Origin: an uncultured Victivallis sp.
GTDB lineage: Bacteria > Verrucomicrobiota > Lentisphaeria > Victivallales > Victivallaceae
NCBI GenBank assembly: GCA_944389815.1
Contig: CALXNS010000086.1
Span: forward strand, 1 to 64,000
DNA length: 64,000 bases
Reading direction: 5' to 3'
Shown here: in pieces, positions 42,782-47,253 of the stretch
How positions within the stretch are numbered: the stretch's first letter is position 1
How the letters are laid out: every line of letters starts with the position of its first letter
Made by a program: the position numbers and the translations under genes
Notes under the pieces: generated by a model
The model's database searches: none
The model's input: the letters and a program-made list of their open reading frames with translations, nothing else
What the model was told of the DNA's origin: nothing

Positions 42782-43483
42782 TTATTCATATTCCGGCTCA
42801 TGATATTGAAAGACCGTGTGAAGGTTTTCCTGAGAAATCACTTCTGTCGGACTCCCGCCTGCGAAAATTGTCCCCTCCTTCAGCAGCAGCGCCTCGTCCA
42901 GATAGTGTGGCGCGATGAAGAGATCGTGCGAAATCATGACGATGCATTTCCCCTTGTGCGCAAAGCCGCGGAGAAAGCGGTAGAATTCATGCTTAAATCC
43001 GATATCAAGCGAACTCGCCGGTTCGTCCAGAAGCAGAATCGGCGTGTTCTGGGCAACGGCCCGGGCGAGCATTGTGCGCTGCCGTTCCCCTCCGCTCAGG
43101 TGCGAGTATGGTTTCTCCGCGAGCGGGGCGAGCTGAAGTTCGTTCAAAATCACCTCAATGTCAGATGACATTTTTCCCCGTTTCACCCAGGGATAGCAAC
43201 CGAGCGCGACAACTTCCCGGACGGTCAGCGGAATGCGTCCGGGAATTTCCTGTTCGACCATTGCCAGACGGCAGGCCCGTTCCAAAGGATCGTTCCAGCG
43301 CGGCGAAATGCTGCCGGAATCAGGAACGAGTTCGCCGGTCATCAACTTGAACAAAGTGCTTTTCCCACAGCCATTCGGGCCGAATATCCCGTAAAAAGCT
43401 CCGCCGTTGAAACGGGCCGAAATCCCTTTCAGAACAGGATTTCCCGGCGAATAGGAGAAGGAGACGTTCTTCAGTTCAATCAT
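42782..43483 (-). CDS. Metal/metallophore ABC transporter ATPase (FecE-like)
   Basis: 233 residues with Walker A IFGPNGCGKST, signature HLSGGERQRTMLARAVA, Walker B ILLLDEPASSLDI and the switch His in CIVMISHDLFI. The layout and size fit the ATPase of FecCDE/BtuCD-type importers. Its start overlaps the permease gene by 8 bases. It is the last gene of the operon with pseudopilin, binding lipoprotein, radical SAM protein and permease. The NikR gene and NikR-like site upstream point to nickel, or a nickel chelate, as the cargo (inference). Confidence 0.92.
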   Translation of the reverse strand: MIELKNVSFSYSPGNPVLKGISARFNGGAFYGIFGPNGCGKSTLFKLMTGELVPDSGSISPRWNDPLERACRLAMVEQEIPGRIPLTVREVVALGCYPWVKRGKMSSDIEVILNELQLAPLAEKPYSHLSGGERQRTMLARAVAQNTPILLLDEPASSLDIGFKHEFYRFLRGFAHKGKCIVMISHDLFIAPHYLDEALLLKEGTIFAGGSPTEVISQENLHTVFQYHEPEYE

Positions 43484-44432
43484 GACTCGCCCTCCTGCGC
43501 AGCAAAAGATAAAAGAAGAACGGTCCTCCCGCGAGTGATGTCAGAATTCCGACCGGAATCTCCTGTGGTGCGGCAACCGTCCGCGCGGCAAGATCGGCCA
43601 GCACCAACAGGAAGCCGCCGGCCAAAATACTCCCCGGCAGAACTCTGCGGAATGTGCCGCCGCAGAGCATCCGAACCATGTGCGGAACCGCCAGTCCCAC
43701 AAACCCGATCACTCCGCAGCAGCTGACCACGCTTGCGCTCAATGCCGCCACGGTCAGCATCAGCAATGGTTTGAGCCGCTTCATCCGCACCCCCGCAAGC
43801 TCCGCCGAACGGTCTCCGAGAAGCAGCATGTCCAGCTCCGGGGCGAGACGGAACAAAATGCCGCACCCCGCCAGCCCCACTGCTGCAAGCAGGATCACAT
43901 CGCTCCAGGTGATCCGCCAGAATCCCCCAAGCAGCCAGAACACCAGTGCCGAGAGCCGTTCATCGGCAAGATAAAGCGCTCCGGAAGTCAAGGCGGAAGT
44001 AAAGGCATTGACCGCAATCCCCGCAAGAATCAAGGTCGCGCCGTCCCAACTCCGCCGCCTGCCGATCAGGAGGAGAATTCCGAGGAAGAGCGCGGCGAAC
44101 ACCATCGCCGGAACGGTCAGCCCGATTCCCGGAAGAAACAATCCGATCACGGCGCCCAGCGCCGCAGTGTTGACCACACCCAGCACATGCGGCGAGGCAA
44201 GGTCGTTGCGGAAAAGATTCTGTGTCGCGCATCCCGCCGCCCCCAGCATTCCGCCCGCCAGAAAAGCGGCAAGCAGTCGGGGCAGCCGGAGTTCCAGCAG
44301 AATCGTCCGGGCGGAATCGGATACCTCACCTCCGGAAACGAGACGCAGAAGATCCGCCCACGAAGCGTTTCCCGCCCCGATTCCCCAGGAGAGAAGAAAC
44401 AACACGACAAATGCGGAAACCAGCAGTTTCAT
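43476..44432 (-). CDS. FecCD-family permease
   Basis: 318 residues from ATG 44432 (AGGA 7 bases upstream). A TTG at 44447 would overlap the radical SAM gene and is less likely. About ten helices; LRLPRLLAAFLAGGMLGAAGCATQNLFRN and VVSCCGVIGFVGLAVPHMVRMLCG are the signature blocks of the FecCD/BtuC family. The coupling loop is the latter segment. It pairs with the ATPase gene that overlaps its end and the lipoprotein two genes upstream to form a type II importer for metal chelates or corrinoids. Confidence 0.92.
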   Translation of the reverse strand: MKLLVSAFVVLFLLSWGIGAGNASWADLLRLVSGGEVSDSARTILLELRLPRLLAAFLAGGMLGAAGCATQNLFRNDLASPHVLGVVNTAALGAVIGLFLPGIGLTVPAMVFAALFLGILLLIGRRRSWDGATLILAGIAVNAFTSALTSGALYLADERLSALVFWLLGGFWRITWSDVILLAAVGLAGCGILFRLAPELDMLLLGDRSAELAGVRMKRLKPLLMLTVAALSASVVSCCGVIGFVGLAVPHMVRMLCGGTFRRVLPGSILAGGFLLVLADLAARTVAAPQEIPVGILTSLAGGPFFFYLLLRRRASHD

Positions 44433-44436
44433 CTCA

Positions 44437-45177
44437 TTATCCTGCAATGGTTTTCACTTTGAACCGATCGTCCCGCGCGGCGAGATTGAGCGCTTCTTCC
44501 GTCGTCAGATGGGAGCTTTTCACATGCGCAAGATAACTTTCCGCCAGTTTTTCGGCGGCCTTCATCTCTTCGTCGGTCGGTCGTTTCCACGGCAGGCCGG
44601 GGATCGGAATATAACCGTCGATGTGAAAGGGAATATTCCGGTCGAGTCCGGCGAGGAAACTTACCACGCCTTCCATTTCGTCGAGACCGACCAGCCCCGG
44701 GATGAACACCAGATTGGCCGCCATCTTCATGCCGGAGTCGAACGCGGCGCGGAAGTTGTCATAGATCAGCGACTTCGGTTTCCCGGTAATCTCAAGATGA
44801 AGCTCTTCGCTCCACGCCTTGAGTCCGACGTTGGCTCCGTCCAGACCGGGAAGCGGCAGACGGCTGCCATTGGTATGGCCGAGCCGGGTCTCCGCTCCAA
44901 GTTCATGCTTTGCAAAGGAGATCATCTCCTTAAGCTCTTTCGCCACGGTCGGTTCGCCGCCCATGAAATAGACTTTTCCGGGAGAGACACTGCGCAGCGC
45001 CTCCTTCATTTCATCGACGGAAAGAAAGCGTTCCGGCTTCGGCTCGGCGAATCCGGGACGGCCGTTTTCTCCGCTTCGCAGTTTGTAGCTGCAAAAGGGG
45101 CAGCGGAAGGTGCAGCCCCAGTTGTGAAGGGTTGCAAAATCATACTTTTCATTCCATGTGATCCGGTAAAATGCCAT
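44437..45177 (-). CDS. Radical SAM protein in the metal-uptake operon
   Basis: 246 residues. WGCTFRCPFC holds the radical SAM cluster ligands Cys22, Cys26 and Cys29 (C-X3-C-X2-C); VYFMGGEPT is the GGE SAM-binding motif, and LGHTNGSRLPL and VFIPGLVGLDEM complete a PflA-like barrel. No extra Fe-S domain is present, so it resembles small activases or pyruvate-formate-lyase-activating-type enzymes. Its place between a metal-binding lipoprotein gene (5 bases upstream) and a FecCD permease gene (4 bases downstream) suggests it modifies a metallophore or a nickel-enzyme cofactor; the substrate is unknown. Confidence 0.88.
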   Translation of the reverse strand: MAFYRITWNEKYDFATLHNWGCTFRCPFCSYKLRSGENGRPGFAEPKPERFLSVDEMKEALRSVSPGKVYFMGGEPTVAKELKEMISFAKHELGAETRLGHTNGSRLPLPGLDGANVGLKAWSEELHLEITGKPKSLIYDNFRAAFDSGMKMAANLVFIPGLVGLDEMEGVVSFLAGLDRNIPFHIDGYIPIPGLPWKRPTDEEMKAAEKLAESYLAHVKSSHLTTEEALNLAARDDRFKVKTIAG

Positions 45178-45182
45178 TTTCG

Positions 45183-45974
45183 TTACCTCATATATTGCTT
45201 CAGAAAATTGATTGTCTCCAATGGAGCGATGCCTTCGACGGTCAGGCGGCGGGGAACGGCGTGGATTCGGCCGTTGCGAACGGCAGGCGTTCCGGAGTAA
45301 GCGCTTCGCGCGGCAATTTCCGCAGCGCTTCCGAAGCCTTCGATGTAGAAGATCACGTCGGGCGCAGCCTCGATCACGGCTTCCGCCGAAATCAAACCTG
45401 TTTTCGACACGATGCTTTTTCCGCCCGCCGCCCGGATAAGATCGCCGAGATACGATGCGTCTCCGGCGATTTTTCCGGGGCTGTACAATTCAAAACAGAC
45501 CCGGCGCGCCGGAACTTCCGCCGGAACGGAAATCTGTTCGAGCCGACGGCGGAAGGATTCGGCAAGTTCCTGTGCCCGCTCCCTCTTTCCCGTCACTTCA
45601 CCGAGGCGCAGAATCAGATCCGGATATTCCGCGAGGCGCACGGCGGGGATAACCGTCACCGAAAGCCCCTCGGCTCGGAAACGTTCCGCAGCTTCCTCCT
45701 GATAATACCAGAGAATCACTCCGTCGATCCCGAGTTCGGCGATCCTCTCGCGCGAAACGGCGGCGCCCTTGCCGATCACGGCCGGTGGCGGAGAACCTGC
45801 CGCGATCCATCCGTATTCATCGATGGCGCACGGCGGAACTTCTAGTTCCGTAAGAATATGCGTCGCCGCCGTCGAGAGTGAGAGCATCCGCTGCGGTGTT
45901 TTCGCTTTCCGTTCAGGTGCGCAACCCGCAAGCAGACAGAGTGTCAGAATAAGAAAGACAGGTTTAAAAACCAT
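45183..45974 (-). CDS. Metal/metallophore-binding lipoprotein (FecB/BtuF-like)
   Basis: 263 residues. MVFKPVFLILTLCLLAGC is a lipoprotein signal with Cys18. RMLSLSTAATHILTELEVP and a later IPAVRLAEYPDLILRLGEVTGKRERAQEL are typical of the periplasmic-binding fold with a rigid helix used by FecCD importers. DASYLGDLIRAAGGKSI and AAPDVIFYIEGFG complete it. Its start overlaps the end of the pseudopilin gene by 11 bases and the radical SAM gene follows 5 bases on. Nickel or cobalt chelates are likely from the NikR context. Confidence 0.88.
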   Translation of the reverse strand: MVFKPVFLILTLCLLAGCAPERKAKTPQRMLSLSTAATHILTELEVPPCAIDEYGWIAAGSPPPAVIGKGAAVSRERIAELGIDGVILWYYQEEAAERFRAEGLSVTVIPAVRLAEYPDLILRLGEVTGKRERAQELAESFRRRLEQISVPAEVPARRVCFELYSPGKIAGDASYLGDLIRAAGGKSIVSKTGLISAEAVIEAAPDVIFYIEGFGSAAEIAARSAYSGTPAVRNGRIHAVPRRLTVEGIAPLETINFLKQYMR

Positions 45975-46656
45975 ATCCGACGCTCCTGTAATCCCAGTAA
46001 CGGTCCGGCGTCGCGTCGAACTTCAGAGATGCAGCGTGACCGTCGGCAAAGGCGGCGTTGAAATCCCGCGTTCTCCCGCCATGGCGGAATGACAGATATT
46101 TGCAATATCCGCCATCCACATAGGGTTCTCCGTTCAACGTGCCGAAGAACGGCGCGGCGACCGTGGTGCCGATATAGTAGCTTCCCGCGTCCGCAATCGT
46201 GATGAATTCGGAAGGCTTCCGGATCTGGTTCGCCCCGATTCCATTCCAGAGAATGGGGGTTTCGCTCTCCCGATTCGACGGATAGCACTGGTTGATGCCG
46301 TAACTGAGTTTGTTGACGTCGCTGGTGCCGTAAACGACCTTTTTGTCATCCGGCCTCCGGTCGGCGGGGCAGACGAACACATTGCCCGAACTTCGTTCGC
46401 TCTTTTCCGCAAGATAAGGCACCAGACAGTCGATCCAGCGGACGCCGGATTTGCTGACCGCCGGCGTCATATTCCAGTCGGAAACATAACTGAAATACGC
46501 CTGGCCGATCTGTTTAACACTCCCCATGCAGCTGATGGTGTGCGCCCGGTTCCGCGCCGCATTCAATGCGGGCAGCAGCAAGCCGGACAAAATGCCGATG
46601 ACCGCAATCACCACCAGGAGCTCCACCAGAGAAAAATATCTTCTTTGAAATTTCAT
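45964..46656 (-). CDS. Pseudopilin at the head of the metal-uptake operon
   Basis: 230 residues starting MKFQRRYFSLVELLVVIAVI, a prepilin segment with Glu at mature position 5 and Tyr instead of Gly before the cleavage site. LLPALNAARNRAHTISCMGSVKQIG and, near the end, RHGGRTRDFNAAFADGHA are the usual family blocks. It is the first gene of the operon: it overlaps the metal-binding lipoprotein gene by 11 bases, and a NikR-type inverted repeat lies 40 bases upstream of its start. It is therefore likely expressed with the importer. How a pseudopilin would help metal uptake is unknown; a surface capture role is one idea. Confidence 0.88.
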   Translation of the reverse strand: MKFQRRYFSLVELLVVIAVIGILSGLLLPALNAARNRAHTISCMGSVKQIGQAYFSYVSDWNMTPAVSKSGVRWIDCLVPYLAEKSERSSGNVFVCPADRRPDDKKVVYGTSDVNKLSYGINQCYPSNRESETPILWNGIGANQIRKPSEFITIADAGSYYIGTTVAAPFFGTLNGEPYVDGGYCKYLSFRHGGRTRDFNAAFADGHAASLKFDATPDRYWDYRSVGYGF

Positions 46657-46695
46657 CTGAATCGTCTTTTTCTTTCAAGTTTCATCTGTTATGAA

Positions 46696-46720
46696 TATTA
46701 CGTTTTTTATTTTCGTAATA
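46696..46720. promoter_or_regulatory. NikR-type operator of the metal-uptake operon
   Basis: Perfect inverted repeat TATTACG-N11-CGTAATA, equivalent to TATTAC-N13-GTAATA. Predicted NikR sites in other phyla have the form GTGTTAC-N13/14-GTAACAC. It lies 40 bases upstream of the pseudopilin start and 48 bases after the nikR stop. Confidence 0.65.
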
Positions 46721-46767
46721 CTCGAACATTCTTTTCCCCTCTGTTTCCTGCGGAGGAATCTTCTGTT

Positions 46768-47184
46768 TTACCGGAGCGTTTTCCCCATGCTTCCGGCCGT
46801 CAATTCGGCCTTCAGAACTCCCTTGAGGCGTTTCAGGGACGCGGCGAGCTTTTCGATTTCGCATCCGCGCCCCCGGATCATGATCATCTCCGCGCAGATT
46901 TCGTGGCTCAGATGAACATGTGTCGAAGCTAGAACATGAACGGAAGAATGATGCTGCAGATCAATCAGTTTCTCGGCGAGTCCCCGCTGATGGTGGTTGT
47001 AGATCAGCGAAAGCGTACCGATGACTTCCTCGCCGGAAATCCACTCCCGGCAGGCGATCCGGCTGCGGATCAGATCCCGGATGTATTCCGAACGGTTTTC
47101 GTAGCCGTCCTTCTCCTGCATGGATGCAAGCTCTTCCAGCAGAGACGACTCCAGAGAGAGGCTGATGCGAACCAGTTTTGTCAT
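46768..47184 (-). CDS. nikR: Nickel-responsive repressor NikR
   Basis: 138 residues from ATG 47184; a longer frame starts at 47253 but lacks family similarity. The N-terminal ribbon-helix-helix (KLVRISLSLESSLLEELASM, YENRSEYIRDLIRSR) binds DNA. The ACT-like domain keeps all four high-affinity nickel ligands: His78, His89, His91 and Cys97 (in HHSSVHVLASTHVHLSHEIC), matching His76, 87, 89 and Cys95 of E. coli NikR. It should repress the downstream importer operon when nickel is plentiful. Length is normal for the family. Confidence 0.93.
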   Translation of the reverse strand: MTKLVRISLSLESSLLEELASMQEKDGYENRSEYIRDLIRSRIACREWISGEEVIGTLSLIYNHHQRGLAEKLIDLQHHSSVHVLASTHVHLSHEICAEMIMIRGRGCEIEKLAASLKRLKGVLKAELTAGSMGKTLR

Positions 47185-47225
47185 TCGTCCTGTTCCCGTG
47201 TATTGAAACGATCTGCAAATTCCGT

Positions 47226-47253
47226 ACTTTACCACGTCTTCATTTTTTGTCAA
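47226..47253 (-). promoter_or_regulatory. nikR promoter
   Basis: Consensus TTGACA (47248-47253), 16 bases and TAAAGT (47226-47231) on the minus strand, about 40 bases before ATG 47184. Confidence 0.6.

Follow-up and report, generated by a model that had tools for sequence, protein, structure and literature searches.

A radical SAM enzyme of an unnamed family encoded within a putatively NikR-controlled BtuCDF-type importer operon in bacteria and archaea

The window analysed here, a 64-kb stretch (64,000 nucleotides) from the genome of an uncultured Victivallis sp., carries on its minus strand, in the order of transcription, nikR, a prepilin-like gene, a gene for a Peripla_BP_2 lipoprotein, a radical SAM gene, a FecCD permease gene and an ABC ATPase gene. 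The radical SAM protein (44437–45177, minus strand; ATG start) has 246 residues, with the CX3CX2C motif at Cys22, Cys26 and Cys29, GGEP at positions 73–76, and His101, Lys120 and His185; this bears out the complete reading frame with three cysteines and a GGE motif reported in the preliminary description. The placement of the gene between the binding lipoprotein and the permease, with gaps of 5 and 4 bases, was likewise confirmed. The stop of the binding-protein gene (45183–45974, minus strand; BtuF/ShuT-like, lipobox LLAGC) lies 5 bases upstream of the radical SAM start, and the permease gene (43476–44447, minus strand) begins 4 bases downstream of the radical SAM gene when translation is taken to begin at its likely ATG, 44432; the mechanically called frame, from a TTG at 44447, overlaps the radical SAM gene by 11 bases. 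The ATPase (ABC_tran; 42782–43483, minus strand) follows. The operon's first gene (45964–46656, minus strand) encodes the prepilin-like protein, recognizable by its N-terminal methylation motif, and a NikR-type operator, ATATTAC-N13-GTAATAC (46695–46721), is situated between this gene and nikR (46768–47253, minus strand; likely start 47184). The preliminary description made no mention of the prepilin-like gene, which heads the operon and is conserved with it.

All three importer components, Peripla_BP_2, FecCD and ABC_tran, score above their Pfam cut-offs and correspond to the parts of BtuCDF/FecBCD-type importers. Among family models, those of BtuC and FecD match the permease, and those of HmuV, BtuD and other FecE-type proteins match the ATPase best, all below the respective cut-offs; no similarity was found between the permease and Escherichia coli NikB. 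These matches place the importer with the heme/B12/siderophore (BtuCDF) systems, and not with NikABCDE. The earlier label of a nickel-type importer does not fit the FecCD/BtuC-like permease, and what stands of it is the link to nickel through the adjoining NikR and operator. The AlphaFold2 model of the binding protein (pLDDT 94.0) retrieved heme binders (2r7a, BhuT, HmuT-type), BtuF, and CeuE with and without nickel in a fold search, and the best solved relatives in a profile search were 4m7o (iron-binding), 2r7a (periplasmic heme-binding) and the B12 binder BtuF. Because the protein is thus nearest to the heme (ShuT, HmuT, BhuT), B12 (BtuF) and CeuE binders, its relatives speak for a bulky metal complex as the cargo rather than a bare ion. 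Helicobacter pylori CeuE, a nickel-binding Peripla_BP_2 protein with a nickel ligand in the solved structures 4inp and 4ls3, shares the binding-protein fold (TM 0.73–0.74), but its identity to the window protein is only ~14–16%, and heme- and B12-binding proteins score better. We know of no radical SAM gene described with Helicobacter pylori CeuE.

The prepilin-like protein belongs to a set of 126 matches across the genome of the window. The copy in the operon is the best match in genomes G043, G006, G258, G170 and G221 and, in Phycisphaerae, in G291 and G292, which marks the protein, by sequence comparison, as specific to the operon in two bacterial phyla; no prepilin-like gene occurs in the archaeal operons. 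For a metal importer operon to include a pseudopilin as a component of its own is unusual, and the protein might serve passage across the outer layers of the cell.

NikR of the window scores above the cut-offs of four NCBIfam models and conserves all four nickel ligands of E. coli NikR, His76, His87, His89 and Cys95. The operator core TATTAC-N13-GTAATA is perfect at 46696–46720 and is the sole match with at most one mismatch in the window, where 0.01 would be expected by chance. A perfect core also precedes the operon at 12 further loci (13 with the window), and elsewhere it was found just twice in ~348 kb, one of the two again directly upstream of an operon (L033). As an inverted repeat with a 13-base spacer, the site fits the type of the published NikR consensus, GTGTTAC-[N13/14]-GTAACAC, which is delta-proteobacterial (PMC545781). 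NikR is matched strongly (E below 1e-20) in 8/18 enzyme-positive versus 0/18 enzyme-negative genomes of the phylum (one-sided Fisher ~0.0015, calculated by hand; the negatives are the listed near relatives and not a random draw). Weak matches (E 3e-8 to 3e-5), which still pass the Pfam cut-off, are present in four enzyme-negative genomes, and several operon-carrying genomes among the 18 enzyme-positive ones searched gave no NikR match. NikR adjoins the operon in a Phycisphaerae locus too; its presence in the archaea is uninformative, since nearly every member of the class sampled has it. Through the NikR gene and its operator the operon is linked to nickel, and the importer looks nickel-controlled. 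In the Phycisphaerae operon with the adjoining NikR (L040, 5955–7076), an additional DUF3344 protein with a PEP-CTERM signal is encoded between the prepilin-like and binding proteins, and a LarA-like (PF09861) match adjoins NikR in one Lentisphaerota genome (G200:C151:2707-3913; the NikR match is covered by L098).

The radical SAM enzyme matches the Pfam Radical_SAM model above cut-off (E 3.4e-14), and 16 positions are invariant in the 47 enzyme sequences compared, including Cys22, Cys26, Cys29, GGEP, His101, Thr131, Gly132 and His185. Its AlphaFold2 model (pLDDT 95.5) finds its best solved fold match in the pyruvate formate-lyase activating enzyme, PFL-AE (3c8f, TM 0.70); MoaA and viperin come next, and NifB and QueE rank further down. 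The 50 best PDB entries listed all belong to the radical SAM enzymes, and the fold neighbours include SuiB, SkfB and PFL-AE with bound peptide. The likeness to PflA and the other glycyl-radical activases thus comprises the best fold match, CX3CX2C, GGE and, in an alignment of the family with E. coli PflA (n=47), counterparts of Lys131 (K120, 43 of 47 sequences) and His202 (H185, all 47). It does not extend to Asp104 and Asp129 of PflA, which, by numbering and role, we take to be cation-site residues: the former is replaced by His101 throughout (47/47), and the latter corresponds to position 118, occupied by Gly in 39 sequences, Ser in 7 and Thr in 1. A monovalent cation has been reported to be essential in PFL-AE (PMC9326890). 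The activase models were also missed by a wide margin (PFLA, 19.0 bits versus a cut-off of 231.75; YjjW, 24.1 versus 250.2; NrdG2, 29.8 versus 131.15). With the two aspartates replaced and no activase model at cut-off, the enzyme is PFL-AE-like in fold and lies outside the glycyl-radical activases; the earlier description of the protein as PflA-like is accurate for the fold, but not as an activase identity. No glycyl radical enzyme was recognized among the neighbouring genes that were read and classified. No NCBIfam model reached its cut-off for the window enzyme or for five relatives tested, which ruled out membership in a named radical SAM family; for this reason the enzyme is assigned, on sequence grounds, to an unnamed and uncharacterised family. 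HemN and ChuW models are absent among its matches, its 246 residues amount to a core-sized protein, and no SPASM or RiPP-recognition domain was seen in them.

In the phylum survey the enzyme was detected in 18/288 genomes. Phycisphaerae and Methanomassiliicoccales copies came from a scan of genome contigs, and further genomes of the Thermoplasmata class contributed copies that are 35–61% identical. Across the 49 loci examined (neighbours counted within 5 kb of the enzyme; some loci near-duplicates, and most named records MAGs), BtuF, FecCD and ATPase genes lie near the enzyme at 33/49, from Lentisphaerota, Planctomycetota and Thermoplasmata archaea, among them archaeal versions that are 36–41% identical. 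The survey for the same gene block that the preliminary description had proposed therefore finds it in three phyla and two domains, and the enzyme and binding protein co-occur genome by genome. At a threshold of E below 1e-35, the binding-protein orthologue occurs only in enzyme-positive genomes (17/17, same 288 genomes); the best match in an enzyme-negative genome reaches 1.5e-14, and the eighteenth enzyme-positive genome, G226, has a weaker match of 2e-14. The pairing is more than linkage, because in G011 the two genes reside on different contigs. Archaeal and bacterial rows are mixed in the tree of the 47 enzyme sequences, where the archaeal label has to change three times or more, and transfer between domains is therefore likely. 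Mirror-tree correlations between the enzyme and the importer parts (0.64–0.79, all loci) carry little weight, as they are uncorrected for species relatedness.

Homologues of the enzyme confined to the neighbourhood of an unrelated pathway, the outcome that would have refuted the preliminary description, were not what the survey showed, although this importer does not adjoin the enzyme at some eight loci of archaea and at one of bacteria. The enzyme occurs without the importer in the archaeal, Methanomassiliicoccales-like loci L042, L043, L048 and L077–L080, and in archaeal L076 it is preceded by a NitT/TauT-type importer. At L038, L039, L046 and L092–L094 the binding protein is present with no permease after it (L046 is cut by the contig end), and at L091 the prepilin-like gene is the sole adjoining part of the operon. 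A methyltransferase and a CobW/HypB/UreG-type GTPase follow the archaeal stand-alone enzyme at L043 (6614–7946) and L076 (3884–5201). NikR-half-site-like GTAACAC/GTAATAC motifs, with no palindrome, precede such enzymes at L043 (5692–5740), L076 (2965–3035) and L077–L080; these archaeal half-sites (GTAACAC/GTGTTAC) are a lead only as NikR-type sites, because they differ in orientation and spacing and a number of them form direct repeats (spacing partly 13–15 bases). An HDAC-fold amidohydrolase and a DUF6951 protein adjoin the archaeal importer set at L085 (10252–11784), L086 (8238–9717) and L089 (5228–6826), a pair compatible with the processing of an organic ligand.

The search for nickel-dependent enzymes in the genome of the window, which is ~95% complete, covered [NiFe]-hydrogenase, Ni-CODH and LarA and detected none of the three. 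Among the relatives, the distribution of CODH and LarA does not follow that of the operon. All six genomes with a hydrogenase also have the enzyme, but twelve other enzyme-positive genomes have no hydrogenase. A plain role in nickel-enzyme maturation was rejected on the lack of hydrogenase, CODH and LarA matches in the window's genome and on these distributions among the relatives. A B12 role read from a riboswitch was also set aside, as the cobalamin riboswitch fell below threshold near the operon in the window and at 17 related loci.

Taken together, block conservation, co-occurrence, and NikR with its operator support a dedicated role alongside the importer, and with it part of the interpretation in the preliminary description; the operon and the fold classes, like these features, are read from sequence. 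Because the radical enzyme is locked into the importer's operon in Lentisphaerota from the gut, in some planctomycetes and in certain archaea related to methanogens, the arrangement suggests that the cell chemically processes the importer's cargo. We infer that nickel is the metal carried, that it travels with an organic ligand, and that the enzyme acts upon this ligand after import rather than upon a protein or a biosynthetic cofactor. Our leading reading, held tentatively and at somewhat less than an even chance, is a NikR-controlled importer of a nickel complex whose radical enzyme would act on the ligand after import, modifying or opening it, as ChuW/HmuW do in heme-uptake operons. With nickel plentiful, NikR would repress the operon. 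Upon nickel shortage, the lipoprotein would capture nickel complexed with an organic ligand, and the FecCD permease and ATPase would carry the complex into the cytoplasm; there, the radical SAM enzyme would abstract a hydrogen from the ligand, or add a radical to it, and the modified or opened ligand would make nickel available to the cell.

Heme-uptake operons with ChuW/HmuW furnish the established precedent for a radical SAM enzyme that frees the metal of an imported chelate, the HmuW/ChuW operon releasing iron from imported heme under anoxia (PMC10404700). The systems of the ChuW/HutW/HmuW anaerobilin synthases and the window operon both encode, in anoxic cells, a radical SAM enzyme along with the periplasmic binding protein, permease and ATPase of a metal-complex importer, and the same role is proposed for both, with the imported chelate processed and its metal freed. 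ChuW and HmuW, however, belong to the class C (HemN-like) methyltransferases and have heme as their substrate, whereas the window enzyme is a PFL-AE-like core with no such match; the window operon further differs in its NikR control and prepilin-like gene, and no heme-trafficking genes were recognized. With NikABCDE and the Nik/CbiMNQO importers it shares a NikR-linked control of nickel uptake, but its permease is not NikB-similar and it has no ECF-type parts.

Several observations run against the nickel-complex reading: the enzyme is core-sized and not of the HemN/ChuW type, it stands alone in some archaea and behind a NitT/TauT-type importer at L076, and there are the negative searches for nickel enzymes in the window's genome and for NikR in several operon genomes. 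The stand-alone archaeal enzymes, together with the methyltransferase and GTPase genes at L043 and L076 and the small-molecule enzymes MoaA, viperin, QueE and NifB among the fold neighbours, would suit an enzyme that makes or finishes a nickel ligand or cofactor (an exported and re-imported nickelophore, or an organic cofactor), with the importer supplying the metal or recovering the complex. We consider such a biosynthetic role unlikely, though it deserves serious weight. The bacterial operons hold no further conserved biosynthetic or export gene, the binding-protein orthologue was never found without the enzyme in the survey, and a single enzyme rarely makes a metallophore; the version in which the enzyme builds a cofactor, as the preliminary description had offered besides chelate modification, is weakened by the absence of a detected hydrogenase, Ni-CODH or LarA, and the genome of the window has no known cofactor user.

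The enzyme could alternatively alter a peptide of the importer or of the prepilin-like protein, for instance by a crosslink or a C-methylation that forms a metal site. The peptide-bound PFL-AE, SuiB and SkfB structures among its neighbours and the operon-specific prepilin-like orthologue of the bacteria point this way, but we judge it improbable, given that the archaeal operons have no such gene and the enzyme no visible SPASM or RiPP-recognition domain; nor does a conserved target motif stand out in the binding proteins, because across the family these share only a handful of invariant residues. We give equally little credence to the import and degradation of heme, a corrinoid or an iron siderophore, with NikR as a neighbour of other role or metal. 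Such cargo would agree with the best scores of binding protein, permease and ATPase, which fall to heme, B12 and iron systems, and with a gene judged Fur-like from its sequence beside the set in G226. Against it are the conserved NikR ligands, the operator before the operon at 13 loci, the confinement of strong NikR matches to enzyme-positive genomes in the sample, the NikR gene adjoining the Phycisphaerae operon, and the lack of a nearby cobalamin riboswitch.

The nickel-complex reading can be drawn further, as a long shot: gut bacteria and methanogen-related archaea would share a dedicated system that takes up nickel in an organic complex, which might be a nickel tetrapyrrole (F430, for example, or what it breaks down to), under NikR control and, in the bacteria, with a prepilin-like outer component, and that releases the metal through a radical reaction at the ligand, in a nickel parallel to anaerobic heme degradation. 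Each part by itself is of a known kind. No description of their combination, in which a PFL-AE-like enzyme accompanies a BtuCDF-type importer under NikR control in two domains, came to light in the literature searched, nor did one of a radical SAM enzyme acting in nickel acquisition; the search covered few subscription journals and is weak evidence of absence. The pairing of the enzyme with a NikR-controlled importer at the genome level presents a concrete, testable candidate for nickel acquisition. If true, the principle known from heme, importing a complex and opening it with a radical enzyme, would extend to a second metal, and a function would be named for an uncharacterised enzyme family of Lentisphaerota, Planctomycetota and Thermoplasmata.
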